Below are positions 4,301 to 28,971 of a stretch of 32,335 bases of DNA, piece after piece. The notes under the pieces were generated by a model. That model saw only the letters and a program-made list of their open reading frames with translations. It was not told where the DNA came from and did no database searches. The position numbers and the translations under genes were made by a program. How positions within the stretch are numbered: the first letter of the stretch is position 1; each line of letters begins with the position of its first letter. The stretch covers positions 1 through 32,335 of the forward strand of contig DWZZ01000029.1 of the NCBI GenBank assembly GCA_019117305.1, written 5' to 3'. The stretch is from Candidatus Mediterraneibacter merdigallinarum. Lineage in GTDB: Bacteria; Bacillota; Clostridia; Lachnospirales; Lachnospiraceae.

Positions 4301-6702
4301 GTCAGCTGTACATTTTCAAAGGTAACTGTGCTGTTGGCAACCGGTGTAACGACCGGCTCATTTACTGTTACTCTCGCAACCGCATCAAATGTATCATCTC
4401 CCGAAACAACTGTACCTTTTACTTCAAAGGTTGTTCCGACCTTATCTTCTGCATATAATTCCGGATCAACATCTTCCCACTCAACAGGAACAAGTTTGGA
4501 GTTGAATTTCTCGCCGAAATTAAAGCCGTTATTTCCCATCAGGTCAGGTGTCGGATCATCAAACGCGATACCATTTGCCACAACTGTCTTCGGGAGAATC
4601 GGCGCTCTTCCTGCCTCAGTTGCTGTTACATAGTCGTCAATGCTTGTAATCGCATCAACTTTGATCTGCATGCTGGCTGTACGGGATACAGTTTCTCCGT
4701 TCTGCTCACGGGATACTGTCAGGTTCAGAGTGCCATAACCACTGTCTTTTGCCTGAATGCTTACCTGCGCTTCGTCAGTTGCGCCGGCGATAGACATGTA
4801 CTCGCTTCCTTCTGTCAGTTCCCACTTATAGCTGAGTCCGTCAAGGCCTGTCGGAAGACTTTCTGCTGTAAAGACTCCTGTCTCGCCTTTAAGGATTCTT
4901 TCTTTTCCTGTAATCTGTGCGGAAATAAGCTCGTTCCATTCCGCAGTCATTTCCTCGCCGAATACTTCCCACTCGCCGATACCTACGCCATTTGCGCCTG
5001 AGCCGTTGCGTTCGATATTCAGACGAAGCTGTGTTGTCTTCACCGGTTCTTTGAATGTTACAACATTCCAGTAACGGTTATTTCCGTTCAGGTAATCTCC
5101 CGGCTGATCAGAAGCAGCGTCCGCGCTTCCGTATTTGACGCCGACAGTAGATACGTCTGCTCCTGTCTCATCTGTCATGTCCGTAATCTTCTGCCAGGAT
5201 GCTGTCTCGTAGTCATAATACTCTACTTCACAGCTCTTCGGGAAAGTTACATTGCCTGACGCCGTCAGATTTCCGTTATCTGCCCAGTACATTACGCGCA
5301 TGCCGTTCAGCACATAAGGCGCGTCCCAGGTCAGCATAACTGTTGTCGGATAAGTGCTGCTGTTCCAGGTGTTCCAGGAAGTTCCCGCATCTGTTGCAAG
5401 CTGGCCGTTATTCACATTTGTAACCGGCGTATTCTGTGCATCTGCAGAAGCAGTAGCCTGGGGAGCAACATTATCGCCTGATGACTGGGCAACCTCTGTT
5501 CCGTATACTTCCACTTCACCGATGCCCACGCCTGTCGAACCATCACCATTGCGGTCAATCACAAGACGAAGTTTGCTTGTCTGAACAGACTCGTTCAGGG
5601 CTACGCCGTTCCAGTAACGGTTATTTCCATTTGTATAATCCGCCGCATTTGCTCCGGCAGCATCTTTGGAGCCGAATTTCACCCCGACAGATGATGTGTC
5701 AGCGCCTGTCTCATCTACAAGCTCTGTGATGTCTGTCCATTCTTTGGACCGCTCATTGTACCACTGAAGTTTGCAGTCAGACGGGAACTGTACGCCGCCG
5801 TTATCTGACCACCACATTACACGTACACTGGAAATGTCATATGTAGTATTGCCCCAGTCAAGGTCCACAGTTACAGGATATTCAACATCCCCGCTCTGAG
5901 CCCAGGTGTTCCATGTTGTGTTGGAACCCTCTGCCATTTTTCCATCATTAATAGCAGCAACCGCGTTGTCCGGCAGCGTTGTATTTGTATATGAAGCAGT
6001 TATATCTGCCTCCCCTGCAACATTGGTGCCTGACGCGATCGTCGGATATCCGAATGCCTCCCACTCACTGATACCTACACCGTTAGTGCCGCTTCCGTTA
6101 CGCTGGATCTTCATCTGAAGTTCTTTTGTAGTAATCGGCTCTGAGAATTTCACATAATTCCAGTATTTGTTGTTTCCGTTAATTCCGTTATTGGAGCTGG
6201 AATCAACTTCAGTACCAACCTCATCTGTCGCCATACCTTTCTCGTTTGTCATACCGGTAATCTGCTGTGCCTCTCCCTCTTCATCCACGTAATAAAGTGT
6301 GGCTGATTTCGGGAATGTCACATTTGCGTTGGACTCCAGCGTAGCGTTATCCGCCCACCAGATTACCCGCATTCCGGTAATAACCTGTTCTGAATCCCAT
6401 TTCAGAGATGTTGTTACCGGATAGTGTTCGTCATCCGTGCCCCAGCTGTTCCAGCTTGTATACGGATCTGACGTAGCCAGCTCACCGTCATTCATAGACG
6501 CCGTAGAGATACCGTACGTATTCGTATAAGACGCATCCGCAGTAGCTTTCAGGGCAATGTTATTGCCCGGATTCTCAGCATCAACCTGAACTGCCGGCAC
6601 TGAATTATCGCCGTCTTCCGGTGCTGCGCTGACCGGGCTTACGGGAGCCATTGTAAAGATCATCGCCGCGCTCAGAAGAACTGCTACAATTCTTTTTTTC
6701 AT
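1399..6702 (-). CDS. Secreted cell-surface GH127-like beta-L-arabinofuranosidase with three N-terminal F5/8C-like modules, Ig-like domains and a C-terminal wall-anchor-like tail
   Basis: Signal peptide MKKRIVAVLLSAAMIFTMAPVSPVSA; three homologous segments (each with NGNN[KR]YWN..., ending NGVGI[SG]E.E.[FY]G); catalytic region VTFENVQLTDNFWNPKQ ... FACACCPPNLMRTIAKLSEYMY typical of GH127; two Big_3-like LDRIEL... repeats; tail KAVQTGD-hydrophobic-KKRKTEK. AGGAGGAAGGAGAAA upstream of the ATG. Confidence 0.9.
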   Translation of the reverse strand: MKKRIVAVLLSAAMIFTMAPVSPVSAAPEDGDNSVPAVQVDAENPGNNIALKATADASYTNTYGISTASMNDGELATSDPYTSWNSWGTDDEHYPVTTSLKWDSEQVITGMRVIWWADNATLESNANVTFPKSATLYYVDEEGEAQQITGMTNEKGMATDEVGTEVDSSSNNGINGNNKYWNYVKFSEPITTKELQMKIQRNGSGTNGVGISEWEAFGYPTIASGTNVAGEADITASYTNTTLPDNAVAAINDGKMAEGSNTTWNTWAQSGDVEYPVTVDLDWGNTTYDISSVRVMWWSDNGGVQFPSDCKLQWYNERSKEWTDITELVDETGADTSSVGVKFGSKDAAGANAADYTNGNNRYWNGVALNESVQTSKLRLVIDRNGDGSTGVGIGEVEVYGTEVAQSSGDNVAPQATASADAQNTPVTNVNNGQLATDAGTSWNTWNSSTYPTTVMLTWDAPYVLNGMRVMYWADNGNLTASGNVTFPKSCEVEYYDYETASWQKITDMTDETGADVSTVGVKYGSADAASDQPGDYLNGNNRYWNVVTFKEPVKTTQLRLNIERNGSGANGVGIGEWEVFGEEMTAEWNELISAQITGKERILKGETGVFTAESLPTGLDGLSYKWELTEGSEYMSIAGATDEAQVSIQAKDSGYGTLNLTVSREQNGETVSRTASMQIKVDAITSIDDYVTATEAGRAPILPKTVVANGIAFDDPTPDLMGNNGFNFGEKFNSKLVPVEWEDVDPELYAEDKVGTTFEVKGTVVSGDDTFDAVARVTVNEPVVTPVANSTVTFENVQLTDNFWNPKQKVNAVNSLNKAIYQIEQPSGGEPNFVNAIAKLNGEPYDEFQGYVFQDSDIYKSIEAISYTLSVINDDTDPEMVAQKAVLEEKLAYWISLIEQVQYADGYIDTHFTLRSTAHAGGSSPGTHRWHDFSNHEMYNAGHFLEGVVAYTRYREGIGDPDYSLYVVGRRFADEIVTLFGPDGTRHEVPGHEEIELALVKFAKLVEEYEGEGTGDKYVETAKTLIDRRGTNMDERESGYWGGEYSQDNASIKEITEAVGHAVRACYFYAGVTDVATLLPEDDPDREAYLNTMDAIWDSVANTKTYITGGIGVRSHGEDFGDPYELPNDDSYCEICATIALANWNQRMNLIHEDAKYADVVEKNLYNAILVGTNLTGDKFYYSTYLEARNGDPRSDWFACACCPPNLMRTIAKLSEYMYTVHGDKLFVNMYIGSDGNVNVDGTNVGLIQETEYPWNGDIKMTVNPDEEKEFTMNIRIPGWVEEQANQNVTISVNGEAVTAEAEKGYVAITRTWNAGDVVRISIPMEIRMTEADPNVEANQGRIALQRGPIVYSIEMAGNAQLNSDIANFSPLNFVIPRDAELTATYNEDLLNGVVEITGDVKYNNNGEIIDAKLQAIPYYAWNNRGNDGVEGQNNCSQMLIWTNTSGASVKIGGDSQLVIGDTTVLNALAAGMDNPTYAWTVDGDAVEITDGADTASVTISAVAEGEATVSVTAASGDTEKTATFTVTVTKDEPQPEPTLDRIELTGPSKTEYIQGEELDLSDLGVIAVYSDGTTEEIAEGYEVTGYDPNALGTQEVTVTYKGVSAVFTVTVKASEEPQPTLDRIELGGDVKTVYTQGEKLDLSGLTVTAVYSDGSKVELKAGDYTVSGYDPNTVGEQNVTVTYGGKTAAFTVTVEEGKQPTDPSDPTDPGQKPSDTQKPSGGQDGDQTDKAVQTGDTTNLFLPAAGMLMAAALLFVAWKKRKTEK

Positions 6703-7637: not shown

Positions 7638-10600
7638 TCATTTTTTCTTTTCTTCCTTTTTTCGGATAATTACTGCTGCCGCAGCGGCACTTAATGCCAT
7701 AACAGATACATAAACTCCCGGGTTTGCATTGTCTCCGGTCTTAACTGCAGCCTTGCCTCCTTCCTTATCCGAATCTTCTTTACTGCCTGACTGTTCCGGT
7801 TTCTTTCCCGGATCATTCTGTTTATCCGGCTCCTTCGGTCCGTCCGGTTTCTCCGGCTGTCCGGGATTTTCAGGATTTTCCGGTTTTTCAGGATCTTCCG
7901 GTTCTTCCGGTTCCTGAGTGGTCTTATCGATATTGGTAATCCTGATTTCCGCTGTCACCGCATTACCTGCAGTATCTGTAAACACAGCTTTTTCTTCTGT
8001 GTTTTCCTGATATGTTTTCACAGCAATCAGACCGTTATCACTTAATATCCAGCCTTCCGGAAGATTTGTTCCGGCCAGAGGCTCATCAAAAGTAATCGTT
8101 ACCACAACATCGCCATCTGTCGGTTCTTCTGTGGAATATGCCACCTCTGCAGTTGGAGCTGTCTGATCGAAATAGAAAGTATATGTCCTTTCTGTCGGAT
8201 ATACGCCTCCGGCAGGAGGAACACAGTCGCGGACAATCAGTATGTTCTTTCCGTCTCCGCCGTTTCCTTCATTTAATACATCCTGTATGTCTTCAAACAG
8301 AACTCCGTCTTCTGTTCCGTCAAGCCGGAATTCTGTTCCATTCAGTACAAACTGAAGCAGCCTTCCATTATCTGTGAACTTAAGATCAAATGTTTCATTT
8401 AATAATGCGTTTTCTTCGATTGCAGTCTCTGTATTTCCGATAACAAACCATGCCGCCGGAGCTTCTGACTCAAATACAAGTTCATTATACCTGGATATAA
8501 GATCCTCTGCAGCTTTCCTTACATCTGCTCCTTCTGCATCCGGATTTTCATATACATCCTCTGCATGTTTGCAGGCTGTCAGGAAATCATCCCATGTATC
8601 ATCATGCTGATAAATGTATTCCTTCCCGATTGCCTCTTCAGCAGTTTTCATTGCTTCTTCCAGAGCTGTTTTATCTACCGCCAGTGCATCAACAGCATCA
8701 TTCAGGGCTTTTGCCGCATCATCAGCCTGCGTCTGAGCTGCTTCCGGATCATCCATTACTTCTTTTGCCGCTTCCAGCTTCTCCTGCATTTCCGTCCAGG
8801 ATTCCTCTGTGTAGTCTTCTTCTTTCAGATCTTCTGCTGCATTGATCGCGGCCTCAAGTTCCGTCTTATCCGCTCTTTTGACAAGTGCGTCTATTGCGTC
8901 TCTAAGCGCCTGTGCCGCATCCGCAATTTCTGTATCCGAAGCCAGCGGGTCGTCCAGAACTGCCTTTGCTTCCTGAAGTTTCTCTTCCATTACACCCCAG
9001 GGATCTGTCAGATAGTCCTCTTTATTCAGCGCTTCTGCTTCGCTGACCACGGCCTCAAGGGCTGATTTATCCGCCTCTTCAAACTTCTGCACTCTATAAT
9101 ATCCCGGCATATAAGCGGTCCGGTAGAAATACAGGTTGACTGCGCTGTCCTGATCAACTGTGAAATATCCTTCAATTCCATTTTTAATATTTCCGTCCAG
9201 CGGTCCCTGATAATCTACGCCTTTTGAGCCTGTTTCCGAAGGCGATTCATAGGCAACGCGGCAGCTTAAATCGCCCATATCACTCAGTGAGAACGGTTTC
9301 CCCTGTTCACCGCTGATCGGATCAATTCCATCATTTACAAATTTAAAAGAAACTTTTACACGGACCACTCCATCTTCGCCCACAACAAACTCCTGGCCTG
9401 TAATCTCAAAATGCCCGTAGTTGTCCGGATCCATAGCATCTGCGTTAAATCCGACTTCTGTGCCTCTCAGGTCACTTTCTGCTGTCTGGATCAGTTTTTC
9501 AGCATCAACAAATGCATTATAGCAGGTGAGTATCTTTTCTGTTGACGCGCCGCTGCTTACATTCGAGCCTTCCTGGAACGCCGCAACCACCGGCAAAATA
9601 CTTTCCGTGAGTTTATCACTGTATATAAATCTGCCGTCTTCCCCTTCTTTATCCGGATTATAATATGCTACCTTGTCATTAAGCATATTCAGCCAGTAAT
9701 ATTTTTCCAGTGTATTATACGCAGTATCCACTTCTGACTGGAATGCCTTTTCATCTTCCAGTACAGTTCCCGCCCGATTCAGCGCATTCGTAAACCCTTT
9801 ATAATATGACTGGGCGGGATAGTCGAACTGCGCATCCTTTACTTCATCATAAAGTTTCTGAAGCGCCGCCTTATCCGTGTCCGGCACAAGAGCTTCCCTT
9901 GCGTTGTTCAGAGCGTCCGCCGCATCATCCACCTCTGACTGCACCGCAAGGACATTATCCCGCACAATCCTCGCCGCTTCCAGCTTCTCCTGCATTGCCG
10001 CCCAGAAGTCCTCCGTGTAATTCTCTTCATCCAAAGCTTCCGCCGCATTGATCGCAGTCTCAAGTTCTGTTTTGTCAGCCGCCGTAAACTTCTGTACCCT
10101 GAAGAAACCGGGCATAACGGAATCTTCCACCGTCAGACTGATTACACTGTCCAGAGGTACTGTCACCTCTCCGATAAAGCCGTTTCCATAAGATCCATTC
10201 AGATTATCTTTGCCGCTGATGCCCTTCGAGCCTTTCTGAGACGGCGACTCATAGGCAACTCTGCAGCTGGCCTTTGTCATCTCGCTGACGCTGTATTCAT
10301 CCCCTTCCTCTCCTGTAACCGGACTGATTCCGTCATTCACAAACCGGATGAAGACCTTCACGCTTACATTTCCGGCCGCATCGGACACAAATTCCTGTCC
10401 TGTGATCTCAAAATGTCCGTAATTTCCTGGATCCAGCGCTGTCTTTGTATCAAAATCATCCTCTGCATTAAAACCGAATTCCACACCTCTCAGATCCGGA
10501 TCCGCTGTCTCCGCCCCGTGTTTCTCAGCCTCTGCAAAGCCTTCATAGTACCCTTTCAGAATATCCGGCTCTGTATTGACATTCGCGTACCTTGCCGTTT

Positions 10601-12575
10601 TAAACGCAGATACAACAGGAAGAATACTCTCTGTAATCTTATCACTGTATACAAATCTGCCGTCCTGCCCCGCCTTATCCGGATTGTAATAAGAAACTTT
10701 ATCATTAACCATATTCAGCCAGTAATACTTTTCCAGATAATAATAAGCAGAATCTACATCTTCCTGTATTGCCGTGTCATTTTCCAGTACATCTGCCGCA
10801 TCTGCCAGCGCGTCTGTGAATCTGTCGCAGAAGGTTGTATTCGGATATGCAAACACCGCATCCTTTACTTCATTATAAAGCTGCTGAAGTTCGGTTTTGT
10901 CTGCCGGCGGCACCTTATCCTCAAGAGCAGCCACCGCGTCGTTGAGCTCCTGCGCGGCTTCCGAGACTTCTGACGTTGTAGCAATGACATCATCCAGAAC
11001 CTCTCTGGCCTCTTCCAGTTTCTGCTGCATCGCTGCCCAGGACTCTTCTGTATAATCATCTGCAGTCAGTCCTTCCGCCCCGACGATTGCCTCTTCAAGA
11101 GCAGAACGGTCAATAACATTCACATTGTTAATCTGTATATTCCAGAAATATGCCGTTGTTCCGTGCCAGCTGATATACAGAGAATAATTTCCCGAAGCCG
11201 GCTTTCCCGTCTGGCTTTTAATCGGGAACTCCATCTCCGTCCGATCCGGGGAAACTACAGCGCCCGCATCAATCGCGCTTTCACCTACGCCTGTACGCTG
11301 ACTCTCTGCCCCCCGCAGATCTACGCCGCTGACATGGACAACCGGTGCTGCCGTGAATTTCAGGCCGGCAATTTCAGTCTTATCTTCATTTTTGCTTAAA
11401 TCGTATGTTTTTCCTCCCGCAGTAATTGTGGCAACCGGCCGGTTTCCATATTCCGTTGATACAGAACCTGCTCCGTCGTCAGAAAGATATACAAAACTCC
11501 AGGTTCCTTCTCCGTCTGTCCCATTCATATCATAAATGCAGACAGCCCGGTAGTTTTTTGTCTCTCCGGATGCCAGAGCCGCTGTATCCCAGTTATCTGT
11601 ATAAAGCAGATGTCTTCCGTCTCTATATTCATAAATCCATTCCGTTGATCCGTCCGGGACATAATTCGTAGGGCCGTTGAGTTCAACTGTAACTCTTCCA
11701 TTTTCATAAGAAACAAAGTCTGTCATATAAATCGGAGAGATCAGTTCCGCAAGATTTTTCTCTGCCGTTTCCAGCGCATCCAGAGCTTCTGTCACGTCAC
11801 CCGCGGAAGCTTCCTCATTTTCATATACAGTCTGCGCATTACTCAAAGCAGTTTCCAGCGCATTCCAGCTGCTGATTACGTAATCTTCTTCATTCAGCCC
11901 CGCCATTTTTTCCACAACACGGTCAATTGCTTCTTTCAGTCCTGTCTTATCTGCCGGATCAGGTTGTTCCGGATTTTCAATCAGTTTATACAGCTCTACT
12001 TCCCCCGTGCTGACTACTGTTTCATGAGCAGAATTTAATGTCAGTCTGACACTTTTTGCAGGAACTGCAGAAAAACTGATGTCCGTCCATGTCAGAGAAT
12101 TGTCAGTTACTGCCTGGTCTGCTGTCTGTATATAGCTGCTTCCGTCGGCGCTCACCTCCACCAGGCAACTGTTCGGCGCGCCATTTCCCACGCCTCCGCC
12201 TGCATTTCGCGGATGAATCCGTACTTTACACAGGTTCACCTGTTCCTCAAAGGTAAACGTATACACCTGAGGCTTTGAATTCGACGGATCGGTATAATTG
12301 CTGTTTGTGTAAGTAGTTGTGTCCCCGTCAAAACTTGCTTCCAGAGTATCGCCGTCATTTGTGGGGCCAAGAGTCTTTGCCGTCATGGACGCAATTTCAT
12401 CCAGGCCGATTTTTACTTCCCGGGATTCATTCTGCCCTGTCCCTGTTCCGCCGGGATCCGGAACGCTCTGAGCATGAGCGACAGCAGGAAGTGCAGAAAA
12501 GTTCATGCTGAATACCATTACAGCACTTAACACAGCAGCAGCACTTCGTTTCAAAACGCCCTTTCCTTTTCTCAT
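7638..12575 (-). CDS. Large FIVAR-repeat cell-surface protein with F5/8C-like N-terminal domain, duplicated unknown module, Pro-rich stalk and wall-anchor-like tail
   Basis: ORF track starts at 12674, but AAAGGAGGAAAAAAG-ATG at 12575 gives MRKGKGVLKRSAAAVLSAVMVFSMNFSALPAVAHAQ (signal peptide). About six FIVAR-like repeats (DKTELEAAINAAE.L.EEDYTEESW..MQEKLEAAKEV...); PEEPEDPEKPENPENPGQPEKPDGPKEPDK Pro-rich region; AAVKTGD-hydrophobic-RKKEEKKK tail. Confidence 0.88.
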   Translation of the reverse strand: MRKGKGVLKRSAAAVLSAVMVFSMNFSALPAVAHAQSVPDPGGTGTGQNESREVKIGLDEIASMTAKTLGPTNDGDTLEASFDGDTTTYTNSNYTDPSNSKPQVYTFTFEEQVNLCKVRIHPRNAGGGVGNGAPNSCLVEVSADGSSYIQTADQAVTDNSLTWTDISFSAVPAKSVRLTLNSAHETVVSTGEVELYKLIENPEQPDPADKTGLKEAIDRVVEKMAGLNEEDYVISSWNALETALSNAQTVYENEEASAGDVTEALDALETAEKNLAELISPIYMTDFVSYENGRVTVELNGPTNYVPDGSTEWIYEYRDGRHLLYTDNWDTAALASGETKNYRAVCIYDMNGTDGEGTWSFVYLSDDGAGSVSTEYGNRPVATITAGGKTYDLSKNEDKTEIAGLKFTAAPVVHVSGVDLRGAESQRTGVGESAIDAGAVVSPDRTEMEFPIKSQTGKPASGNYSLYISWHGTTAYFWNIQINNVNVIDRSALEEAIVGAEGLTADDYTEESWAAMQQKLEEAREVLDDVIATTSEVSEAAQELNDAVAALEDKVPPADKTELQQLYNEVKDAVFAYPNTTFCDRFTDALADAADVLENDTAIQEDVDSAYYYLEKYYWLNMVNDKVSYYNPDKAGQDGRFVYSDKITESILPVVSAFKTARYANVNTEPDILKGYYEGFAEAEKHGAETADPDLRGVEFGFNAEDDFDTKTALDPGNYGHFEITGQEFVSDAAGNVSVKVFIRFVNDGISPVTGEEGDEYSVSEMTKASCRVAYESPSQKGSKGISGKDNLNGSYGNGFIGEVTVPLDSVISLTVEDSVMPGFFRVQKFTAADKTELETAINAAEALDEENYTEDFWAAMQEKLEAARIVRDNVLAVQSEVDDAADALNNAREALVPDTDKAALQKLYDEVKDAQFDYPAQSYYKGFTNALNRAGTVLEDEKAFQSEVDTAYNTLEKYYWLNMLNDKVAYYNPDKEGEDGRFIYSDKLTESILPVVAAFQEGSNVSSGASTEKILTCYNAFVDAEKLIQTAESDLRGTEVGFNADAMDPDNYGHFEITGQEFVVGEDGVVRVKVSFKFVNDGIDPISGEQGKPFSLSDMGDLSCRVAYESPSETGSKGVDYQGPLDGNIKNGIEGYFTVDQDSAVNLYFYRTAYMPGYYRVQKFEEADKSALEAVVSEAEALNKEDYLTDPWGVMEEKLQEAKAVLDDPLASDTEIADAAQALRDAIDALVKRADKTELEAAINAAEDLKEEDYTEESWTEMQEKLEAAKEVMDDPEAAQTQADDAAKALNDAVDALAVDKTALEEAMKTAEEAIGKEYIYQHDDTWDDFLTACKHAEDVYENPDAEGADVRKAAEDLISRYNELVFESEAPAAWFVIGNTETAIEENALLNETFDLKFTDNGRLLQFVLNGTEFRLDGTEDGVLFEDIQDVLNEGNGGDGKNILIVRDCVPPAGGVYPTERTYTFYFDQTAPTAEVAYSTEEPTDGDVVVTITFDEPLAGTNLPEGWILSDNGLIAVKTYQENTEEKAVFTDTAGNAVTAEIRITNIDKTTQEPEEPEDPEKPENPENPGQPEKPDGPKEPDKQNDPGKKPEQSGSKEDSDKEGGKAAVKTGDNANPGVYVSVMALSAAAAAVIIRKKEEKKK
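8870..10900 (-). repeat. Tandem duplication (two ~1.02-kb units) inside the FIVAR surface-protein gene
   Basis: Both units read LxxLYxEVKDAxFxYP...LEKYYWLNMxNDKVxYYNPDKxGxDGRFxYSDKxTESILPVVxAF...DLRGxExGFNA...DPxNYGHFEITGQEFV...FVNDGIxPxxGExG...CRVAYESPSxxGSKG...MPGxxRVQKF followed by a FIVAR repeat. Boundaries approximate. Confidence 0.85.
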
Positions 12576-13182
12576 CTTTTTTCCTCCTTTTCCTACTAAA
12601 TAACTTCCCGGAATCTTCTGCCCTGATTTTATAAGGCTTTCGGACCCTTCTCTCAAAAATTTCTTTTTCCGCACAATATTCAGTTGTCAAATTTCGGTTA
12701 GTATCCCACTCATCGAGATTCCAAGAAGTTATTTTCCCCTCTTTCGGGGTTTCCGTTATTTTTGCCATATTTATCAATGGCAGCTACTTATATATTAGCA
12801 TTTTTCACAATGTTCAGCTTGCATATTTTATCTTTTCATTTATATTAATTAGTTATTTTTAGTTTATCTCCATTTTTTTGTTTATATTTCACGTTCCCGA
12901 TTGTCTTCGCATATTTATGTCAGATATTCACAACGCAAAAGAACATCTCTGTTTTTTCTATATCCCCTGTTTCAAAAGTAACCCGGCTATATGATACACA
13001 TCAGAAATAAACGGACAGACCACCCTCACGCCTGCAATATCCATAATATTTTCAGCCATTCCACTGATTGTAAACGTAACTTCCTGACGGATTATTTTCT
13101 CTTTTATACTTTCCGGAGACTTTACCCTGCTGTTAATAGATTCAATAGGATTTCGGTCATTACAGGCCTCAAAAATAAAAAA

Positions 13183-17865: not shown

Positions 17866-18834
17866 TTATTTTTTTGCTTTTACGTTCCTTTTCTCCACTT
17901 CAGCCTGAAACTGCACGGCAAGATTCTGCCATTCCTGATAGCCTTCTTCTCCTCTGTGATCAGGCAGGGTATAATTTTCTTTTAAATATTTTCCCATATA
18001 TGCAGTAACTTTCTGTGCGCCGTGGAGATTCAGATGATCTCCTTTGTCATAACTGTCTTTTTTCCAGTCGATTCCGATTTCTTTTGTCTTCATATTCAGA
18101 TCAATATATGGAAGTGCGTTTTCTTTGGCATACGCTTCAATCGCATTATGTTTTTTATAGTTGTAATTATGCGGAGACGGCGCGCTCATAAGCAGAAGAT
18201 CCGCGCCATTCTCTCTGCACATTTTCTTTATGTCTTCCATATAGTAATAAACAAATTCCGGAATCTGCTGCACATCTTTTGTTTCTTTCATATAGTGGTC
18301 GCTTCCTTCATAAGGAACCACTTTATCCCGTATTTCAAATCCTTTGAATACAGTACGTCCTGTGTACTTTTTCCCGTCAATAATCTGCTTCCACAGATTA
18401 TGATAACGGAATATAGGGAAATAATACCGGACAGGTTCTATAATTGACATTGAGACATTAGTAAGAAATCCCGGATCACGAAACATCGCATTTGTCTCAA
18501 GAATAACCAATTTAGGCGACTGTGTTTTAAACGCCTCTTTCAGCAGAAAACAAGTCTCCTGGATCCTTTGTCCCGGCTGACCACAGTCAAATGACGTAAT
18601 CCCCGTCTGATTCCACAGATCCATCGGAGACATCGAAGTATAACTTTCACTGTCTCCAATCACCAGAATGTCAATTGTATTTTCCGGTTCTGCGCCAACC
18701 GACGCAAAGGAACGGCTTCTCCCTATAATACCGTCTTTCATGCTGACAGCCACTTTCTGTATGCCAAAAGAAAGCACTCCCAGCAGCATTACAAATATTA
18801 AAACAAATAAAATAATTCTTTTTTTCGCTTTCAA
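17866..18834 (-). CDS. SGNH/GDSL-hydrolase-like membrane-anchored protein (DltD/AlgJ-like role)
   Basis: N-terminal TM; VIGDSESYTSMSP as GDS block and GDHLNLHGA as C-terminal D..H motif; adjacent to an MBOAT gene. Likely TTG start at 18834 with AGGAGG upstream. Confidence 0.8.
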   Translation of the reverse strand: MKAKKRIILFVLIFVMLLGVLSFGIQKVAVSMKDGIIGRSRSFASVGAEPENTIDILVIGDSESYTSMSPMDLWNQTGITSFDCGQPGQRIQETCFLLKEAFKTQSPKLVILETNAMFRDPGFLTNVSMSIIEPVRYYFPIFRYHNLWKQIIDGKKYTGRTVFKGFEIRDKVVPYEGSDHYMKETKDVQQIPEFVYYYMEDIKKMCRENGADLLLMSAPSPHNYNYKKHNAIEAYAKENALPYIDLNMKTKEIGIDWKKDSYDKGDHLNLHGAQKVTAYMGKYLKENYTLPDHRGEEGYQEWQNLAVQFQAEVEKRNVKAKK

Positions 18835-18866
18835 ACTTTCCTCCTCGGTATACTGAAAATACTCCC

Positions 18867-20456
18867 TTAGAATCCTGCGTATATGAGATCAACTTTCTGA
18901 TATCCATCCCCGTACGCCGCAAATATAACCACCGCCAGAATCAGCGCATAGTACGCGCACCAGCGCAGCGGAAGCCGGCATTCCGAGAGCCTTTCCCTCA
19001 CACATATTCCCCGTTCTTTTATCATACCGACTACTGCCACCACAATGCACCCGGCCACAACCGCTACAATATCAGACTTCTGCAGTCCCAGGTTAAGAAG
19101 AGTTCCGTCCCACAACTGCCGGATCTGGAAATCCTCAGATATACTTCGGAACATATGGAGGCCCGCCCGGAATCCATCTGCCCGGAAAAACAGCTCTCCC
19201 ACAAAAATAATGATCCATGTTTTTGTAATCTGTACTCTTCGCCATGCCCGGGAATCCTCGCGGATATGAAAGACGTTCAATGCCCGGTCCCTTACAGGCT
19301 GTACGGCAATGCCCAGCAGGATCAGGGTAAAATAATACAATCCATAGAAAATATAACTCCACCTTGCGCCATGCCACAAACCGTTGCAGATCCATACCGG
19401 CAGAAGCGCCATGGCAGAAGTTCCCAGCATGGTTACATACTTGCCCAGATGTTTTCTGCCGTACTGGTTCCATTTCTTTACAATCCCGGACATAGAAACC
19501 GGATAGAAAATATATGTCTTAAACCATACTCCCAGTGTAATATGCCATCTTCTCCAGAACTCCGCAGCATTTCTTGCGCAGAAAGGCTGACGGAAGTTTT
19601 CCGGAAGACGAACTCCGAAAAGTTCACCGCTTCCGATTATCATATCCATACATCCTGAAAATTCCATATAAAGCTGTACGGTATAGGCTACTGCTGATAC
19701 GGCAACAATGAGACCGCTGTAAGATGTATAGTGCTCAAACACCATTCCTACCGCAACCGCCAGCCGGTCAGCCACAATCTTTTTCTTAAAAAGCCCCCAT
19801 ATAATCCGGATATATCCGTTTTGCAGATTCCGAAGTTCCAACGGCTTCTCTGAGAAAAGGGTATCAGATACATCGGAATATCTGCTGATTGGTCCTTCCA
19901 TAATCTGGGGAAAAAACGCAAGGAAAAGCGCTGTATTTTCCAGATTCGTCTCCGCTTTTATCTTTCCCCAGTACACATCGGCCATATAGCCAATAGCCTG
20001 CAGGGTATAAAAGGATATGCCGATAGGCATAATAAGAGACTTCTGCTCCAGCGAAAAAGGAAGATGACACATCTCTATCACGCCGGATATATTACTGGCA
20101 AAGAAATTATAGTACTTCAGATACGCCAGCACACCCAGCAAAAGCACAACTCCAAGCAGAAGCACCCGTCTGCTCTGCTTCTGGTATGCCGCTTTTACCG
20201 CCTTCCGCTCGCTCCCCGAAACTTTGGCGGCCGCTGCTTTTTCCTCCGATTTCAGCCATGCCAGCCATATACCGATACAGTGGACAAGCAGTGTGGTCGC
20301 GAGAAGATATACCAGCAGCTTTCCGCTGAACAGATAGAAAAACACATAGCCGCATGCCAGCAGCACCCGCCTGCGCCAGCCTTTCGGCGCAAGCTGGTAA
20401 ACTGCCAGACATACAGGGAGGAACAAAAGCACATATAATAATGAATCGTAAGACAT
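18867..20456 (-). CDS. MBOAT-family O-acyltransferase (DltB/AlgI-like)
   Basis: Polytopic membrane protein with IMPIGISFYTLQAIGYMADVYWGK, FFPQIMEGPISRYSD, EFWRRWHITLGVWFKTYIFYP and ICNGLWHGARWSYIFYGLYY (active-site His region). Confidence 0.92.
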   Translation of the reverse strand: MSYDSLLYVLLFLPVCLAVYQLAPKGWRRRVLLACGYVFFYLFSGKLLVYLLATTLLVHCIGIWLAWLKSEEKAAAAKVSGSERKAVKAAYQKQSRRVLLLGVVLLLGVLAYLKYYNFFASNISGVIEMCHLPFSLEQKSLIMPIGISFYTLQAIGYMADVYWGKIKAETNLENTALFLAFFPQIMEGPISRYSDVSDTLFSEKPLELRNLQNGYIRIIWGLFKKKIVADRLAVAVGMVFEHYTSYSGLIVAVSAVAYTVQLYMEFSGCMDMIIGSGELFGVRLPENFRQPFCARNAAEFWRRWHITLGVWFKTYIFYPVSMSGIVKKWNQYGRKHLGKYVTMLGTSAMALLPVWICNGLWHGARWSYIFYGLYYFTLILLGIAVQPVRDRALNVFHIREDSRAWRRVQITKTWIIIFVGELFFRADGFRAGLHMFRSISEDFQIRQLWDGTLLNLGLQKSDIVAVVAGCIVVAVVGMIKERGICVRERLSECRLPLRWCAYYALILAVVIFAAYGDGYQKVDLIYAGF

Positions 20457-20459
20457 TGT

Positions 20460-20687
20460 TTAATTCTCCTGCAGTCTGCAAACCATTTTGTAAATCGCTC
20501 CGGCGGAATTAAAATTCTCCGGAATCATTTCAGATGCCTCAATCTCTATATCAAAAGCCTCCTCAAGTTCTGCTACAAGGGTGATCACTCCGAATGAATC
20601 CAGCAGCCTGTCATCAATCAGCGCCTGTTCCTTCTCATAATCAATACTGTCATCAATCTCCCGTAAAATATTCATTAAAGTTTCCAT
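20460..20687 (-). CDS. Acyl/peptidyl carrier protein (DltC-like)
   Basis: 75 aa, with carrier-protein helix-2 motif RLLDSFGVITLVAELEEAFDIEIEASEM; Ser in DSF is the expected 4'-phosphopantetheine site. Confidence 0.85.
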   Translation of the reverse strand: METLMNILREIDDSIDYEKEQALIDDRLLDSFGVITLVAELEEAFDIEIEASEMIPENFNSAGAIYKMVCRLQEN

Positions 20688-21934
20688 CCTGATAAACCTC
20701 CTGCAATCTCTGTTATTTCTTCTGCCGCGCGGCGTTTTCCGCCGTCACTTCCGTCCTCCGGCATATTCCATAAATATGTATCCCTCTGTTTTCTCAGCAG
20801 CTGCCAGCCTTCGTCCTGCTGATATGTCACAACCGACGGCAGCGGGTGACTCAAAAACAGGGACATTCCTTCCATCGCCGAATACGCGCCTGTCCGTTCA
20901 AAAGCAAGAATTTTTCCGCTCTGCACTCCCGTCAGCTTCACATCTCTGCACAATACGTCATTTACCGTACAGAGCGCGCCGCATATCGTCCACGCTTTCT
21001 CTCTGCCCTGCTGTTCTCCCGGAAGCACCTGGAGATGCGGTTCATACATCCCGCGGATCTGTCCGTCATAATTGATCTGGTGATTTCCTCCGTCCACAAT
21101 ACAGTATTCCGTATCTCCGTTTTTCTTTATATCCCGGATCTGGGTCAGGTAATATCCGCACTCAGCCGCGATGGCCCGACCCAGTTCAATTGTCACATGC
21201 CCCTTCCACTGCATGGAATCTATGGCCTCCCTGAGAGCTGTCAACCCTTCATCTTTGTATGTCTGCACGTCCTTGCCCTGAAAATACGGGACTGCAATAC
21301 CAGGACCATATTCCAGACAGGGAATGGACACTTTCCACTCGTCCCGAATCCGGATCAGAAGATCATCCAGCATGGAGATCTCTTTTTCCAGCTGCTTTAG
21401 CGAACGTTTCTGCGTTCCTGAGAAGTAATGGATCCCTTCTATTTCAAGGTACGGACTCATATTTACCACATTGAATACACTATGGAGCATATCTTCATCC
21501 ATTCCAAACTGATTACCGCTTGTAAGTCTTGGATACAGTCTGAGCTTCACCATATGGGCATCACTCCACTCCACAAAATAGTGAAGCTGTTTTACGGATT
21601 CCACGGTATACGCGCACCGCCCCTGACAGAATTCCAGAATCCGGAATATATCTTCCTTCTTTTTAAGTACTCCGGATATAAACAGTTTTTCAGGCGGGAT
21701 CCGAAGTTTTCTGCAGATCTCAAATTCGCCCATGGAACATACTTCAATCCGATCCGCTTCCTCCGCCATGTGAGCAGTCAGAAAGGGATTTGCCTTCATT
21801 GCATAACACAGGCCCACATCTTTCCCGAAAGCATTCCGGAGCCGCATGGTCTGGGCGGTCAGCCGGTCAAGATCAAAAACATACAATGGTGTTCCATAAC
21901 GCGCCGCCGCGTATTCCAGTTTTTCTTTATTCAA
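20675..21934 (-). CDS. Fold-type III PLP-dependent amino acid decarboxylase (diaminopimelate/ornithine decarboxylase superfamily)
   Basis: YAMKANPFLTAHMAEE (PLP Lys), HYFSGTQ, EYGPGIAVPYF, ELGRAIAAECGYYLTQI (EPGR equivalent), CGALCTVNDVL (active-site Cys), GAYSAM. 13-nt overlap with the ACP gene. Confidence 0.88.
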   Translation of the reverse strand: MNKEKLEYAAARYGTPLYVFDLDRLTAQTMRLRNAFGKDVGLCYAMKANPFLTAHMAEEADRIEVCSMGEFEICRKLRIPPEKLFISGVLKKKEDIFRILEFCQGRCAYTVESVKQLHYFVEWSDAHMVKLRLYPRLTSGNQFGMDEDMLHSVFNVVNMSPYLEIEGIHYFSGTQKRSLKQLEKEISMLDDLLIRIRDEWKVSIPCLEYGPGIAVPYFQGKDVQTYKDEGLTALREAIDSMQWKGHVTIELGRAIAAECGYYLTQIRDIKKNGDTEYCIVDGGNHQINYDGQIRGMYEPHLQVLPGEQQGREKAWTICGALCTVNDVLCRDVKLTGVQSGKILAFERTGAYSAMEGMSLFLSHPLPSVVTYQQDEGWQLLRKQRDTYLWNMPEDGSDGGKRRAAEEITEIAGGLSGWKL

Positions 21935-21939
21935 CTCTC

Positions 21940-23502
21940 CTACCTTCCTTTCCCGGCCGCTACTTTTTTCAGATAATCCCGGTCCGTTTTTCCGTTTTTA
22001 TTCAATGGCATGACGCTCATCTGCACCAGACGTGGAGGCACCATATAAAGTGGAAGCTTTTCCTTCAAAGTTCTGCGTACTTCCGAGGGCTCCACATCTC
22101 CCATATAAAATCCCACGATACGGTTTCTGTCACGGTCAAATATGCAGCAGCTTTTCTGAATATTGTCCACGCTGTTCATAGCGCTTTCGATTTCCTCCAG
22201 CTCAATCCGGTGTCCCATGTGTTTAATCTGAAAATCTTTGCGTCCGGCAAATACCAGCTCTCCGTTTTCATCAAAGCATCCCATATCACCGGTTTTATAA
22301 ATTCTTGTCTTTTCATTTCCATTTACAGGATACAGAACAAACCGCTGCGCCGTCTGCTCCGGATTGCGGTAATAGCCTTCCGCCAGTGATTCTCCTGCCA
22401 CGCAGATCTCTCCCTGTTGTCCCGGCGCAGTTATCTGCTGTCCGTCTTCACCCAGAAGAAATACAACTCTTCCGGGGAAGGCGCGCCCTGCAGGGATTTT
22501 TTCTTTGTCATCATACCGGCGCTTCACCCGGTAAAATGTACAGTTGCATGTAATTTCCGTAGGACCATACAGATTCACGAATTCGGCGTCAGGAAGGGCA
22601 TCCTGCCAGATCCGAAGCTGTTTCGGAGGCATTGCCTCCCCGCTGAACATAACTTTGTTCACATACTCCGGCACCCGGTAAGCCAGTCCTTTCAGCGAGG
22701 ATACAAGCGTCAGCGCGGACACGGCCCAGGTCAGTGTGGTTACTTTCCGATCACACAGATCATCCAGCAGTCTGGGCGGCGTTGAAAAGTATTCTTTCGG
22801 AATCAGCGCCAGTTCCGCTCCTGTCATTACTGCCGAATAGATGTCTTTTACCGATACGTCAAAATCAAAAGGCGCCTGGTTGCCAATCACATCAGCCTCT
22901 GTTATATGGAAGCACTCCGTAAAATGTCCGATAAACTGAAGTACTGATCTGTGGCTTACGATCACTGCTTTCGGATTCCCTGTCGAACCGGATGTAAACA
23001 GTCCGTATAAGGGATCCGCCCTGCGCCCTGCAGAACGAAGCTGTGCAAGCTTTCCCGCGTCCATTTCTGATTTCAGAAGATCTTCTGCCAGAACCGGCTT
23101 CAGTTTACCGTCCGCCAGAAGTCCCGTTGTCTCCAGCAGATTTTTTCCGTTTTCATCCACGACAACAGTCTCCGCTTCCAGCGTCCCGAAAATCTTTTGC
23201 AGCCGGTCTCCCGGATTGTCGGGATTAACAGGAACGTAAAAGCATCCTGCGTACACGGTACCGAACATAGCGGCCAGCGTAACTGCGCTCTTTTCCATGA
23301 GAATAGGCACCGGCCGTCCCGCCGGAACCAGACCGGCAAGTCTGCTCCCGATTTTTCGGGCCATTACGGCCAGTTCATGCCACGTCAGCGACATTCTGGT
23401 ATCAGACACAGCAGTTTTATATTTATACTTCTCTTCTGCCTGCTCAAGGCAGTCAAGAATGCTGTCATATTCTTTTTGTGTGTCATTTTTATTCAAAGTC
23501 AT
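21940..23502 (-). CDS. Amino acid adenylation enzyme (DltA-like/NRPS A-domain)
   Basis: A3 LFTSGSTGNPKAVIVSH, A4 APFDFDVSVKDIY, A5 NLYGPTEIT, A7 YKTGD, A8 GRKDFQIKHMGHRIELEEIE, A10 LNKNGKTDRDYL. Confidence 0.92.
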   Translation of the reverse strand: MTLNKNDTQKEYDSILDCLEQAEEKYKYKTAVSDTRMSLTWHELAVMARKIGSRLAGLVPAGRPVPILMEKSAVTLAAMFGTVYAGCFYVPVNPDNPGDRLQKIFGTLEAETVVVDENGKNLLETTGLLADGKLKPVLAEDLLKSEMDAGKLAQLRSAGRRADPLYGLFTSGSTGNPKAVIVSHRSVLQFIGHFTECFHITEADVIGNQAPFDFDVSVKDIYSAVMTGAELALIPKEYFSTPPRLLDDLCDRKVTTLTWAVSALTLVSSLKGLAYRVPEYVNKVMFSGEAMPPKQLRIWQDALPDAEFVNLYGPTEITCNCTFYRVKRRYDDKEKIPAGRAFPGRVVFLLGEDGQQITAPGQQGEICVAGESLAEGYYRNPEQTAQRFVLYPVNGNEKTRIYKTGDMGCFDENGELVFAGRKDFQIKHMGHRIELEEIESAMNSVDNIQKSCCIFDRDRNRIVGFYMGDVEPSEVRRTLKEKLPLYMVPPRLVQMSVMPLNKNGKTDRDYLKKVAAGKGR

Positions 23503-26430: not shown

Positions 26431-28971
26431 TTATTTTTCGGTCCTTTCTTTCTGTCTTTCCTGTTTTTCTTTCTGTCTGCGGTACGCCTGGTATATTCTG
26501 GAGCCGGTTATGCCCTTCAGCACATTTGCCGCGCACCGTCTCAGATCTTCTCTTTTAACGGCTCCGCTCTTTACTGCATTTTTCAGCCCGCGGACTGCGC
26601 TTCTGCCGCCCGGCATGATCAGATCATTTCCGGACGCCACAGCCCGCGCATGGCTTCCAAGTCCCTTGCCTGTGGCAAGCCAGTCCGTCATCACAAGCCC
26701 GTCAAATCCCCATTCGCACCGGAGCACTCCATCCAGCAGCACTTTGCTGTTATTTACATAAGTGCCGTTCACCTTATTATAGCTGGACATGACAGCGCCC
26801 GGCCTTCCTTCTTCAACCGCGATCCGGAACGCTCTCAGGTAAATCTCCCGCAGAGCCCGCTCATTCACATTCGCGTTGGTCCGGTTCCGGTTTTCTTCCT
26901 GATTGTTGCAGCAGAAATGCTTTATGGTGGCAAAGCAGCCCCTTCGGGACTGAACGCCTCTTGTCACTGCCGCGGCTGTCTTTCCCGCAAGCAGCGGATC
27001 TTCAGAATAGTATTCAAAATTCCGTCCGCACAGAGGATTCCGGTGTATATTGAGAGCCGGAGCCAGCCAGTATGTCACTCCATAAGCCTCCATCTCTTTT
27101 CCCACTGCTTCCCCCACAGTTTCCGCGAGAGGCAGATTCCAGGACTGAGCCAGAGACAGCCCTGCCGGAAATGAGGTGGCAAACTGATAAATACATGGCT
27201 GTTTCTCCGGATTTCCCAGGCTGAATCTGGTCAGCACTTTCGGGAAATATTTCATGGCTGACATAGATGGCTCAACACCTTTTACCTTTCCGCTTCTTGT
27301 GACTGTGGACATCCGCTGCAAACGGAGTCCGGCAGGCCCGTCCGCCAGACAGACATTTGGGATTCCTTTTCCCAGCAGCCGTCCGGTAGTATAACCTGCT
27401 GACCCCGGAGCTTCGAAAAATCTGGGGCCGCCGCCATGTACTCCCGCGCCCACAAGCAGTTCACACAGCTCATCATCATCCAGAGAATCCAGAAGTTTCG
27501 AAACTTCCCCTTCGCGAGGAATCTCCGGCAGCACGTACCGGTGCGTCTTCGCCGCAATTTTCTCCGCGCTGACTGCAATCCGCTCCACATCTGTATCCTG
27601 TATATCCGCCGTATCATCCAGCTGCGGAGGATCAATCTCCTTTACTTTGCTCATTCCCCTACATACAGACCGGCAGACCTCTGTCACTGCATCCCGATCC
27701 AGCGTAAGTACGGCAGCCGGCCATGTATTCCGGCTGGATGTTCCCAGACGCAGCACATAGTCTCCGGCCTCCAGCACATAGCTGGCATCTTCTTCCCGAA
27801 AATATGCCAGATCTCTCAGATCAAAATCAAGCTGCAGCTCCATGCTTTCTCCCGGCGCCAGCTCCCGGGTCTTGCCGAATGCGGCCAGTTTCTGATACTC
27901 TTTCGGCGCCCCGGTCTGCGGACAGCTTACATAGAGCTGGACCACTTCTTTTCCCGAAAACCGACTGCCTGTATTGGTCACTTTAACTTTTACCTGTACC
28001 GATACGGCACCGTCCGCCTGGCGTACATTCACCTGCTCCTTTTCCACAGAAAAGTCTGTGTAGGAGAGACCATAGCCGAAAGGATACCGGGGTTCTGCTC
28101 CGAAACTGTCAAAATAACGATATCCCACATAAATACCTTCCCGGTAATACTCTTCATCCACATTTCCATTCAGGTAGCTGTATTCCATTGCGCAGGGAAT
28201 ATCTTCATATTTTCCGGACCATGTATCTGCCGTTTTTCCCGATGGAGACGTCTTTCCGCTGATCAGATCCGCGAACGCCCTGCCGCCTTCCATTCCCTGC
28301 TGGGCAAAGAAAACAACGCTGTTAATGCCATGGATTCTGTCCAGGAAACTCATGTCAAAGACTGAGCCTGTATTGATTACTACAATTGTCCTGTCATATC
28401 CTTCGGCGCATGTCTTCAGGTTGGCCAGTTCCGCGTCAGACAGAGAATATTCTCCGCCCTCAAGCCTTTTGTCTCCGCCCTCGCCTGCCTGACGCGCAAC
28501 TACATAAATACATGTATCCGTATCAGAGGCCTGAATATCCGTCTCTGTAACCGGCTGCCCGAAAGGATACTGATAGGGAACACTCATAAAATTTATGATT
28601 TCAGCAGGTTTCATCCGCATGATTTTCCGCCGGAACTCTTTCCGGAACGCTTCCTCGCCCTCCCGGTACAGTCCGGCATACTCCTCAATCCATTTCTTTG
28701 TCGTCACAGTAAATCCGGCCTGCTCCAGACCTTCCAGGATGGTCACTGCATGCCGCTCATTTACCTCACCTGAACCGGTTCCGCCTTTGATCGTCATCCC
28801 TGCTCCGGCTCCGTACAGCGCAATTTTCCCGGGAACGAGGGGAAGTGTTCCGTCATTTTCCAGCAGTACGATCCCTTCCAGCGCCGCCCGATAGGAAATC
28901 TCTTTGTTTGCTTCTTCCAGAGGCGTTACCCTGTCTGTAAACGCCGCTTTATTTCTGATCTTTATTTTCAT
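26431..28971 (-). CDS. GH3 beta-glucosidase-like enzyme with permuted domain order
   Basis: N-terminal half resembles the GH3 C-terminal domain (ALEGIVLLENDGTLPLVPGKIALYGAGAGMTIKGGTGSGEVN) plus Fn3-like domain; catalytic barrel follows (NVCLADGPAGLRLQ, ATIKHFCCNNQEENRNRTNANVNERALREIYLRAFRIAVEEG, GFDGLVMTDWLATG). Stop is 1 nt from the downstream GH3 start. Confidence 0.92.
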   Translation of the reverse strand: MKIKIRNKAAFTDRVTPLEEANKEISYRAALEGIVLLENDGTLPLVPGKIALYGAGAGMTIKGGTGSGEVNERHAVTILEGLEQAGFTVTTKKWIEEYAGLYREGEEAFRKEFRRKIMRMKPAEIINFMSVPYQYPFGQPVTETDIQASDTDTCIYVVARQAGEGGDKRLEGGEYSLSDAELANLKTCAEGYDRTIVVINTGSVFDMSFLDRIHGINSVVFFAQQGMEGGRAFADLISGKTSPSGKTADTWSGKYEDIPCAMEYSYLNGNVDEEYYREGIYVGYRYFDSFGAEPRYPFGYGLSYTDFSVEKEQVNVRQADGAVSVQVKVKVTNTGSRFSGKEVVQLYVSCPQTGAPKEYQKLAAFGKTRELAPGESMELQLDFDLRDLAYFREEDASYVLEAGDYVLRLGTSSRNTWPAAVLTLDRDAVTEVCRSVCRGMSKVKEIDPPQLDDTADIQDTDVERIAVSAEKIAAKTHRYVLPEIPREGEVSKLLDSLDDDELCELLVGAGVHGGGPRFFEAPGSAGYTTGRLLGKGIPNVCLADGPAGLRLQRMSTVTRSGKVKGVEPSMSAMKYFPKVLTRFSLGNPEKQPCIYQFATSFPAGLSLAQSWNLPLAETVGEAVGKEMEAYGVTYWLAPALNIHRNPLCGRNFEYYSEDPLLAGKTAAAVTRGVQSRRGCFATIKHFCCNNQEENRNRTNANVNERALREIYLRAFRIAVEEGRPGAVMSSYNKVNGTYVNNSKVLLDGVLRCEWGFDGLVMTDWLATGKGLGSHARAVASGNDLIMPGGRSAVRGLKNAVKSGAVKREDLRRCAANVLKGITGSRIYQAYRRQKEKQERQKERTEK

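Follow-up and report, generated by a model that had tools for sequence, protein, structure and literature searches.

A Dlt-like MBOAT–SGNH gene cluster with a BtrK-like decarboxylase in Candidatus Mediterraneibacter merdigallinarum and other Lachnospiraceae

The window analysed here, a stretch of 32,335 nucleotides (nt) from Candidatus Mediterraneibacter merdigallinarum (assembly GCA_019117305.1, contig DWZZ01000029.1, positions 1 to 32,335), carries five open reading frames (ORFs) on the minus strand between positions 17866 and 23502, as located from the ORF coordinates and the sequence. They encode an adenylation enzyme (A), a pyridoxal phosphate (PLP)-dependent decarboxylase (K), a carrier protein (C), an MBOAT (B) and an SGNH protein (D). 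Judged by sequence comparison, the cluster is a distinct and conserved variant of Dlt-like MBOAT–SGNH acylation and not canonical dlt. The system very probably transfers a group other than D-alanine, with the decarboxylase as an integral part of it. A narrower prediction, that the substrate would be aspartate or glutamate and would be decarboxylated on the carrier, is mildly favoured. More tentatively, Lachnospiraceae may put beta-alanyl or gamma-aminobutyryl (GABA) esters, made on the carrier, on an envelope polymer, and the cluster may then be one branch of a wider Dlt-like family with diversified pockets and tailoring.

Gene set, conservation and separation from canonical dlt

The gene order adenylation enzyme, decarboxylase, carrier, MBOAT and SGNH protein on the minus strand, as given in a preliminary description of the stretch, agreed exactly with the ORF positions. 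The A gene (21940–23502, minus strand) encodes a stand-alone amino-acid adenylation enzyme of 520 amino acids (aa), which scored 332.8 bits against TIGR01733, above the cut-off. The K gene (20675–21934, minus strand) encodes a BtrK-like PLP decarboxylase of the alanine-racemase (AR) fold (419 aa; PF02784/PF00278); by reading of the sequence, it has the start codon TTG preceded by a GGAG-type ribosome-binding site. Its overlap of 13 nt with the C gene, reported in the same description, was present at 20675–20687 on the minus strand according to both the ORF coordinates and the sequence. The C gene (20460–20687, minus strand) encodes a stand-alone carrier protein of 75 aa with a PP-binding match above the cut-off and the phosphopantetheine Ser31 in the motif LLDSF, which was conserved in 100% of 79 sequences. 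The B gene (18867–20456, minus strand) encodes a long MBOAT of 529 aa (PF03062, above the cut-off) with His362 in the motif WHG and Tyr526 in the C-terminal motif LIYAGF, and the D gene (17866–18834, minus strand) a membrane-anchored SGNH protein of 322 aa with an N-terminal helix. Pfam and NCBIfam assigned A to AMP-binding/amino-acid adenylation, K to Orn_Arg_deC_N and Orn_DAP_Arg_deC, C to PP-binding and B to MBOAT. For D neither Pfam nor NCBIfam gave a match; its structural model (pLDDT 94.5) has the fold of an SGNH/GDSL hydrolase, Foldseek matching it to DltD and PatB among others, and the residues Ser62, His267 and Asp263 were conserved in 100, 99 and 98%, respectively. The earlier assignment of four of the genes to the Dlt functional types holds for A, C and B by Pfam and NCBIfam and for D by the fold model.

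In 84,980 species genomes that were scanned there were at least 541 relatives, and locus counts were made from the best 80 named loci among the matches listed. All five genes were on one strand in 73 of these 80 loci, the decarboxylase being retained with the other four, and the conservation that the preliminary description had left to be checked was thus found. The order A-K-C-B-D was present in 56 loci, B-D-A-K-C in ten and B-D-K-C-A in one, in addition to single variants, and the five-gene linkage therefore survives rearrangement. The co-occurrence of the five genes is far beyond chance, and they form a conserved unit. K homologues (E up to 1e-20) were detected in 37 of the 150 sampled genera of Lachnospiraceae, where they mostly adjoined A and C and usually also B and D. 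Phylum-wide the system was rare (5 of 399 genomes, E up to 1e-60) and is therefore mainly lachnospiral; its non-lachnospiral members were from Oscillospirales-like, Mogibacterium and Lactimicrobium genomes. The nearest named relatives among the matches listed were Mediterraneibacter metagenome-assembled genomes, with K 82–85% identical in loci L140 and L142. Across the loci the A–K junction was typically an overlap of 4 nt and the K–C spacing had a median of +18 nt, the 13-nt overlap not being generally kept.

A response regulator/histidine kinase pair was present in 37 of 115 cluster loci, directly adjacent in 32 of them, and envelope-stress control of the cluster is possible. In one example, locus L150, the pair was VanR-like. 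The idea of a conserved regulator was not relied on: in the window the pair is of the CzcRS-like kind, and a peptidase gene lies between it and the cluster.

Compared with the models of canonical Dlt proteins, both A (270.8 bits against DltA TIGR01734, cut-off 559.85) and B (149.3 bits against DltB TIGR04091, cut-off 375) remained below the cut-offs. The maximum-likelihood tree placed the canonical DltAs of the family in one clade (100/100) and the K-linked A proteins in a separate clade of 51 rows, of which 45 were K-linked (100/97). The cluster shares with DltABCD(X) an A-domain ligase, a stand-alone carrier, an MBOAT and an anchored SGNH protein in one operon, but A and B are far under the DltA and DltB cut-offs, the set of pocket residues is another one and the decarboxylase is extra. 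Furthermore, a Tyr motif is built into the long MBOAT of the window, whereas Dlt has a separate DltX. The B proteins, about 530 aa long, end with FIYxxF or LIYAGF, while the canonical DltBs of the family have about 385 aa and lack the motif. The ending LIYAGF is of the FxYxxF type with L for F at the first position; in the 80-locus set Tyr526 was conserved in 99% and the final F in 95%, and the active-site His362 was conserved in 100%. In PatA a C-terminal Tyr motif carries the acyl-Tyr shuttle (PMC12148441). PatA/PatB and other MBOAT–SGNH pairs thus share with the window an MBOAT with a terminal Tyr acyl-shuttle motif and an SGNH transferase, but the donor of PatA is acetyl-CoA, whereas the donor expected here would be an aminoacyl carrier. 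Also in AlmE-type lipopolysaccharide glycylation a DltA-like enzyme aminoacylates an envelope glycolipid (PMC11253843); that system differs in using glycine, in being Gram-negative and in lacking a decarboxylase. Two more MBOATs of the host genome have a C-terminal FLYFxF, and each of them adjoins a gene for a protein that by reading is AlgX/DHHW-like.

Active site of the decarboxylase and pocket of the adenylation enzyme

In K the PLP-binding K47 as well as E250, C322 and D326 were invariant, and T323, adjoining the catalytic C322, was Thr in 95% of the sequences. The pattern C-T-x-x-D, as in BtrK, was found in 78 of the 82 K rows, while LysA has C-E-x-x-D. The best PDB matches by sequence were two BtrK entries (3.6e-33) followed, with a modest margin, by LysA (6.9e-29), and Foldseek ranked BtrK (7ru7) at the top for the K model (pLDDT 86.5); the relationship to BtrK proposed earlier is thus in line with BtrK being the nearest solved relative by both sequence and fold. 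Enzymes of the LysA and ornithine decarboxylase (ODC) type hold the distal amino group of the substrate with an acidic residue next to the Cys (PMC7857480), and the loss of this residue therefore disfavours a diamino substrate. A basic residue was present in the specificity-helix segment in 78 of the 82 K sequences, usually at 294 or 297 but not at both; at the corresponding site the specificity helix of diaminopimelate decarboxylase carries an Arg binding the substrate carboxylate (PMC7857480). By sequence, the active site of K is BtrK-type and not LysA-type. The exosortase A-associated ligase and decarboxylase (TIGR03098/TIGR03099) likewise combine an AMP ligase with an AR-fold decarboxylase, but K (165.4 bits against TIGR03099, cut-off 478.45) and A (cut-off 592) of the window are far under the cut-offs, and the setting is another one.

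The pocket of A consists of D215, V216, K219, T258, M285, S287, L311, C319 and N320, aligned with GrsA positions 235, 236, 239, 278, 299, 301, 322, 330 and 331, respectively (GrsA numbers are used below). D215 is the second Asp of the motif FDFDVS, which is present as stated in the preliminary description. Seven of the nine pocket positions were at least 97% conserved among 78 A proteins from named loci (pairwise identity 41–98%, median 49%), in comparison to 93 of the 520 columns overall (hypergeometric p about 1e-4). The code of the family's canonical DltAs is D L M V L C T V A, from which the K-linked A proteins differ by Lys for Met at 239, Ser for Cys at 301 and Asn for Ala at 331. The comparison of specificity residues with DltA suggested earlier thus gave a non-DltA pocket, with M239K and C301S among its differences. 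Ser was present at 301 in all 78 aligned A proteins and Cys in the canonical DltAs of the family. At this position Cys269 of DltA is a main enantiomer determinant (PMC4176424), and VinN also has Ser there (S299; PMC11253843). Lys239 would suit a substrate that has a second carboxylate. The idea that the pocket strictly predicts K was refuted by five same-pocket loci without K (L101, L118, L129, L136 and L138).

These comparisons bear on two alternatives. It is improbable that the cluster does ordinary D-alanylation with K as an accessory or regulatory protein. Each of the four Dlt functional types is represented, and the search for a canonical DltA in the host genome (assembly size 2.41 Mb, completeness 89%) found none, but the D-Ala pocket residues are swapped for a different invariant set, and canonical dlt coexists with the decarboxylase system in at least genomes G082 (L122 and L041) and G090 (L077 and L036). 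Still harder to accept is K as a displaced or duplicated diaminopimelate decarboxylase sitting by chance in a D-alanylation operon, a case which the preliminary description had raised against its own reading and which was rejected. Although the lysA model was the best NCBIfam match of K, the score of 175.6 bits was under the cut-off of 297.9, and Thr replaces Glu beside the catalytic Cys in 95% of the sequences. The host genome has a separate, better-scoring lysA-like gene (L071, 267.9 bits, itself just below the same cut-off), and the linkage of K to A, C, B and D persists through rearrangements, with an A that lacks the DltA pocket. The earlier reading of Dlt-like MBOAT/SGNH acylation, in which the decarboxylase is integral and the substrate is not D-Ala, is supported.

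Predicted loading, decarboxylation and transfer

Loading through the alpha-carboxyl makes that carboxyl the thioester, and K would therefore be unable to act on a tethered ordinary alpha-amino acid. Tethered alpha-decarboxylation needs the thioester on another carboxyl and thus Asp loaded via its beta-carboxyl or Glu via its gamma-carboxyl. In the favoured route, A would activate an acidic amino acid, most likely Asp or Glu, through the side-chain carboxyl and load it onto the phosphopantetheine of C, after which K, as a BtrK/VinO-type enzyme, would strip the free alpha-carboxyl on the carrier to give beta-alanyl-S-C or GABA-S-C. B would then move the acyl group across the membrane by means of its active-site His and its own C-terminal Tyr shuttle motif, and the anchored D would esterify it onto a putative extracellular polymer. 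The resulting ester, with its primary amine, would have a charge comparable to D-Ala but a different chemistry. From the preliminary description, which had combined loading of an alpha-amino acid with decarboxylation on the carrier, the carrier-linked scheme is kept, but the loading needs a second carboxyl. Of the decorations it had proposed, a beta- or gamma-amino acid, as an omega-amino acyl group (beta-Ala, GABA), fits better than a diamine, which is unlikely because of the carboxyl chemistry and the missing LysA/ODC-type acidic residue.

As with BtrK/VinO-type decarboxylases, the genes linked to K include one for a loading ligase and one for a stand-alone carrier. The loading ligase of the butirosin pathway, BtrJ, is not known to be an A domain. 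In that pathway BtrK decarboxylates Glu-S-BtrI (PMC7857480) to GABA-S-BtrI. The decarboxylase of the same subfamily, the stand-alone carrier and the Thr beside the catalytic Cys are shared with the window, but BtrI/BtrK make an antibiotic side chain, whereas the system of the window is predicted for envelope transfer. In the vicenistatin pathway VinN loads 3-methylaspartate (3-MeAsp) on VinL for subsequent decarboxylation by VinO, and the decarboxylated acid is not a substrate of VinN (PMC11284099). This pathway also includes an A-domain enzyme, a carrier and a PLP decarboxylase, with decarboxylation following loading; it differs in the K330/R331 and shortened loop of VinN, missing here, and in supplying a polyketide starter instead of MBOAT/SGNH transfer.

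Two indirect observations speak for loading ahead of decarboxylation. Same-pocket A genes were present without K in genomes G002, G057, G121 and G147, which had no K, PanD or PF00282 match, and this suggests that A uses the acid before its decarboxylation. A Formyl_trans_N gene was part of the operon in two same-pocket loci lacking K (L118:2-850 and L129:6422-7303); in L129 its place is precisely between the A and C genes, as though carrier-level tailoring enzymes occupied this slot.

Several observations weigh against the favoured route. The homoserine code DLKNVGSDVK also has Lys239 (PMC12283262), which weakens this residue as an argument for an acidic substrate, and V236, S301 and L322 resemble the serine code DVWHLSLVDK; the pocket is therefore no proof of an acidic substrate. 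Of the VinN determinants, the shortened loop, K330/R331 and F231 are missing from A of the window, S301 being the sole match. In loci L057 and L061 the pocket of the K-linked A is wholly changed (IARGCSQAS), with D235 lost and Arg at 239, while K is unaltered. Genomes without K might obtain beta-Ala or GABA by import. No match to CDP-glycerol polymerase (PF04464) was found in the host genome, and its two large sulfatase-fold membrane proteins (PF00884) look LtaS-like from fold family and reading alone.

The same observations enter into two further alternatives. According to one, K decarboxylates the free amino acid (Asp to beta-Ala or Glu to GABA), A loads the product on C, and B and D transfer it. 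For such a route, which is regarded as rather unlikely, IdnL3 offers a parallel, as it acts on free beta-glutamate and its decarboxylated product is then loaded by IdnL1 (PMC11284099). K is retained in L057 and L061 despite the completely changed A pockets, and since the host genome gave no match to PanD or to a GAD-type enzyme, K could be the only source of beta-Ala or GABA. However, the invariant Lys239 would be left without an obvious partner if the substrate had no second carboxylate, same-pocket A proteins are also encoded in genomes that gave no K, PanD or GAD-type match, and BtrK, the closest solved relative, works on a carrier-bound substrate. The second alternative concerns the acceptor, which may be a secreted small molecule or a surface protein or glycan instead of a teichoic-acid-like polymer; this is doubtful, if less so than the free-substrate route. 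It would suit the lack of an acceptor gene conserved beside the cluster, the many envelope polymers modified by MBOAT–SGNH pairs (PMC12148441) and the pairing of four SGNH genes with one MBOAT in locus L215, but D resembles DltD in its membrane helix at the N-terminus, and the sulfatase-fold, LtaS-like proteins are encoded in the host genome. The four SGNH genes of L215 (11049-15038) follow the MBOAT consecutively within a five-gene cluster, which suggests several acceptors.

D-alanylation sets the surface charge, antimicrobial-peptide resistance and immune recognition of Gram-positive bacteria. If beta-alanyl or GABA esters are made and transferred as predicted, they would be a common alternative to D-Ala in abundant gut bacteria (Mediterraneibacter, Blautia, Dorea, Roseburia-related and others), whose surface chemistry would then differ from what the annotation 'dlt' implies, and the pathway would be, to our knowledge, the first MBOAT–SGNH pathway in which the donor group is chemically remodelled on the carrier before export. 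In the open-licence literature searched, neither an earlier description of a Dlt-like operon with a decarboxylase nor anything relevant on beta-Ala or GABA esters on teichoic acid was found. Because of the invariant pocket and the K gene, substrate and product are directly testable with purified A, C and K.

Related clusters and other genes of the window

Lachnospiraceae also have a second large class of Dlt-like clusters, with the A code DAKCAGLGM and no decarboxylase (L103-L107, L109, L113, L114, L116, L119 and L133-L135), and most of these clusters are adjoined by a surface protein with a transglutaminase-like domain. Apparent distant K genes beside other Dlt-like clusters were rejected, as the alignment showed them to be surface transglutaminase-domain proteins drawn in by the fused L060 row. 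In this row, a single open frame of 1114 aa (L060:6713-10057) located beside a DAKC-class A, a K decarboxylase is continuous with surface domains of the Rib/Ig-like and transglutaminase-like kinds; it is unusual for a cytosolic enzyme to be joined to a surface protein, and the frame may have arisen in the assembly. In a third class (L102, L111, L112, L117, L128 and L131) A has lost the amino-binding Asp235 and has the code SM-YLALDI, which suggests a substrate without an alpha-amino group.

Elsewhere in the window, positions 26431–28971 encode a glycosidase of family GH3 with permuted domains, the C-terminal and Fn3-like domains preceding the N-terminal catalytic domain. There are also two large ORFs on the minus strand. 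The one at 1399–6702 encodes a GH127 beta-L-arabinofuranosidase that is LPXTG-anchored and has Ig-like domains, and the one at 7638–12674 a protein with an F5/8-type C domain and five FIVAR domains.

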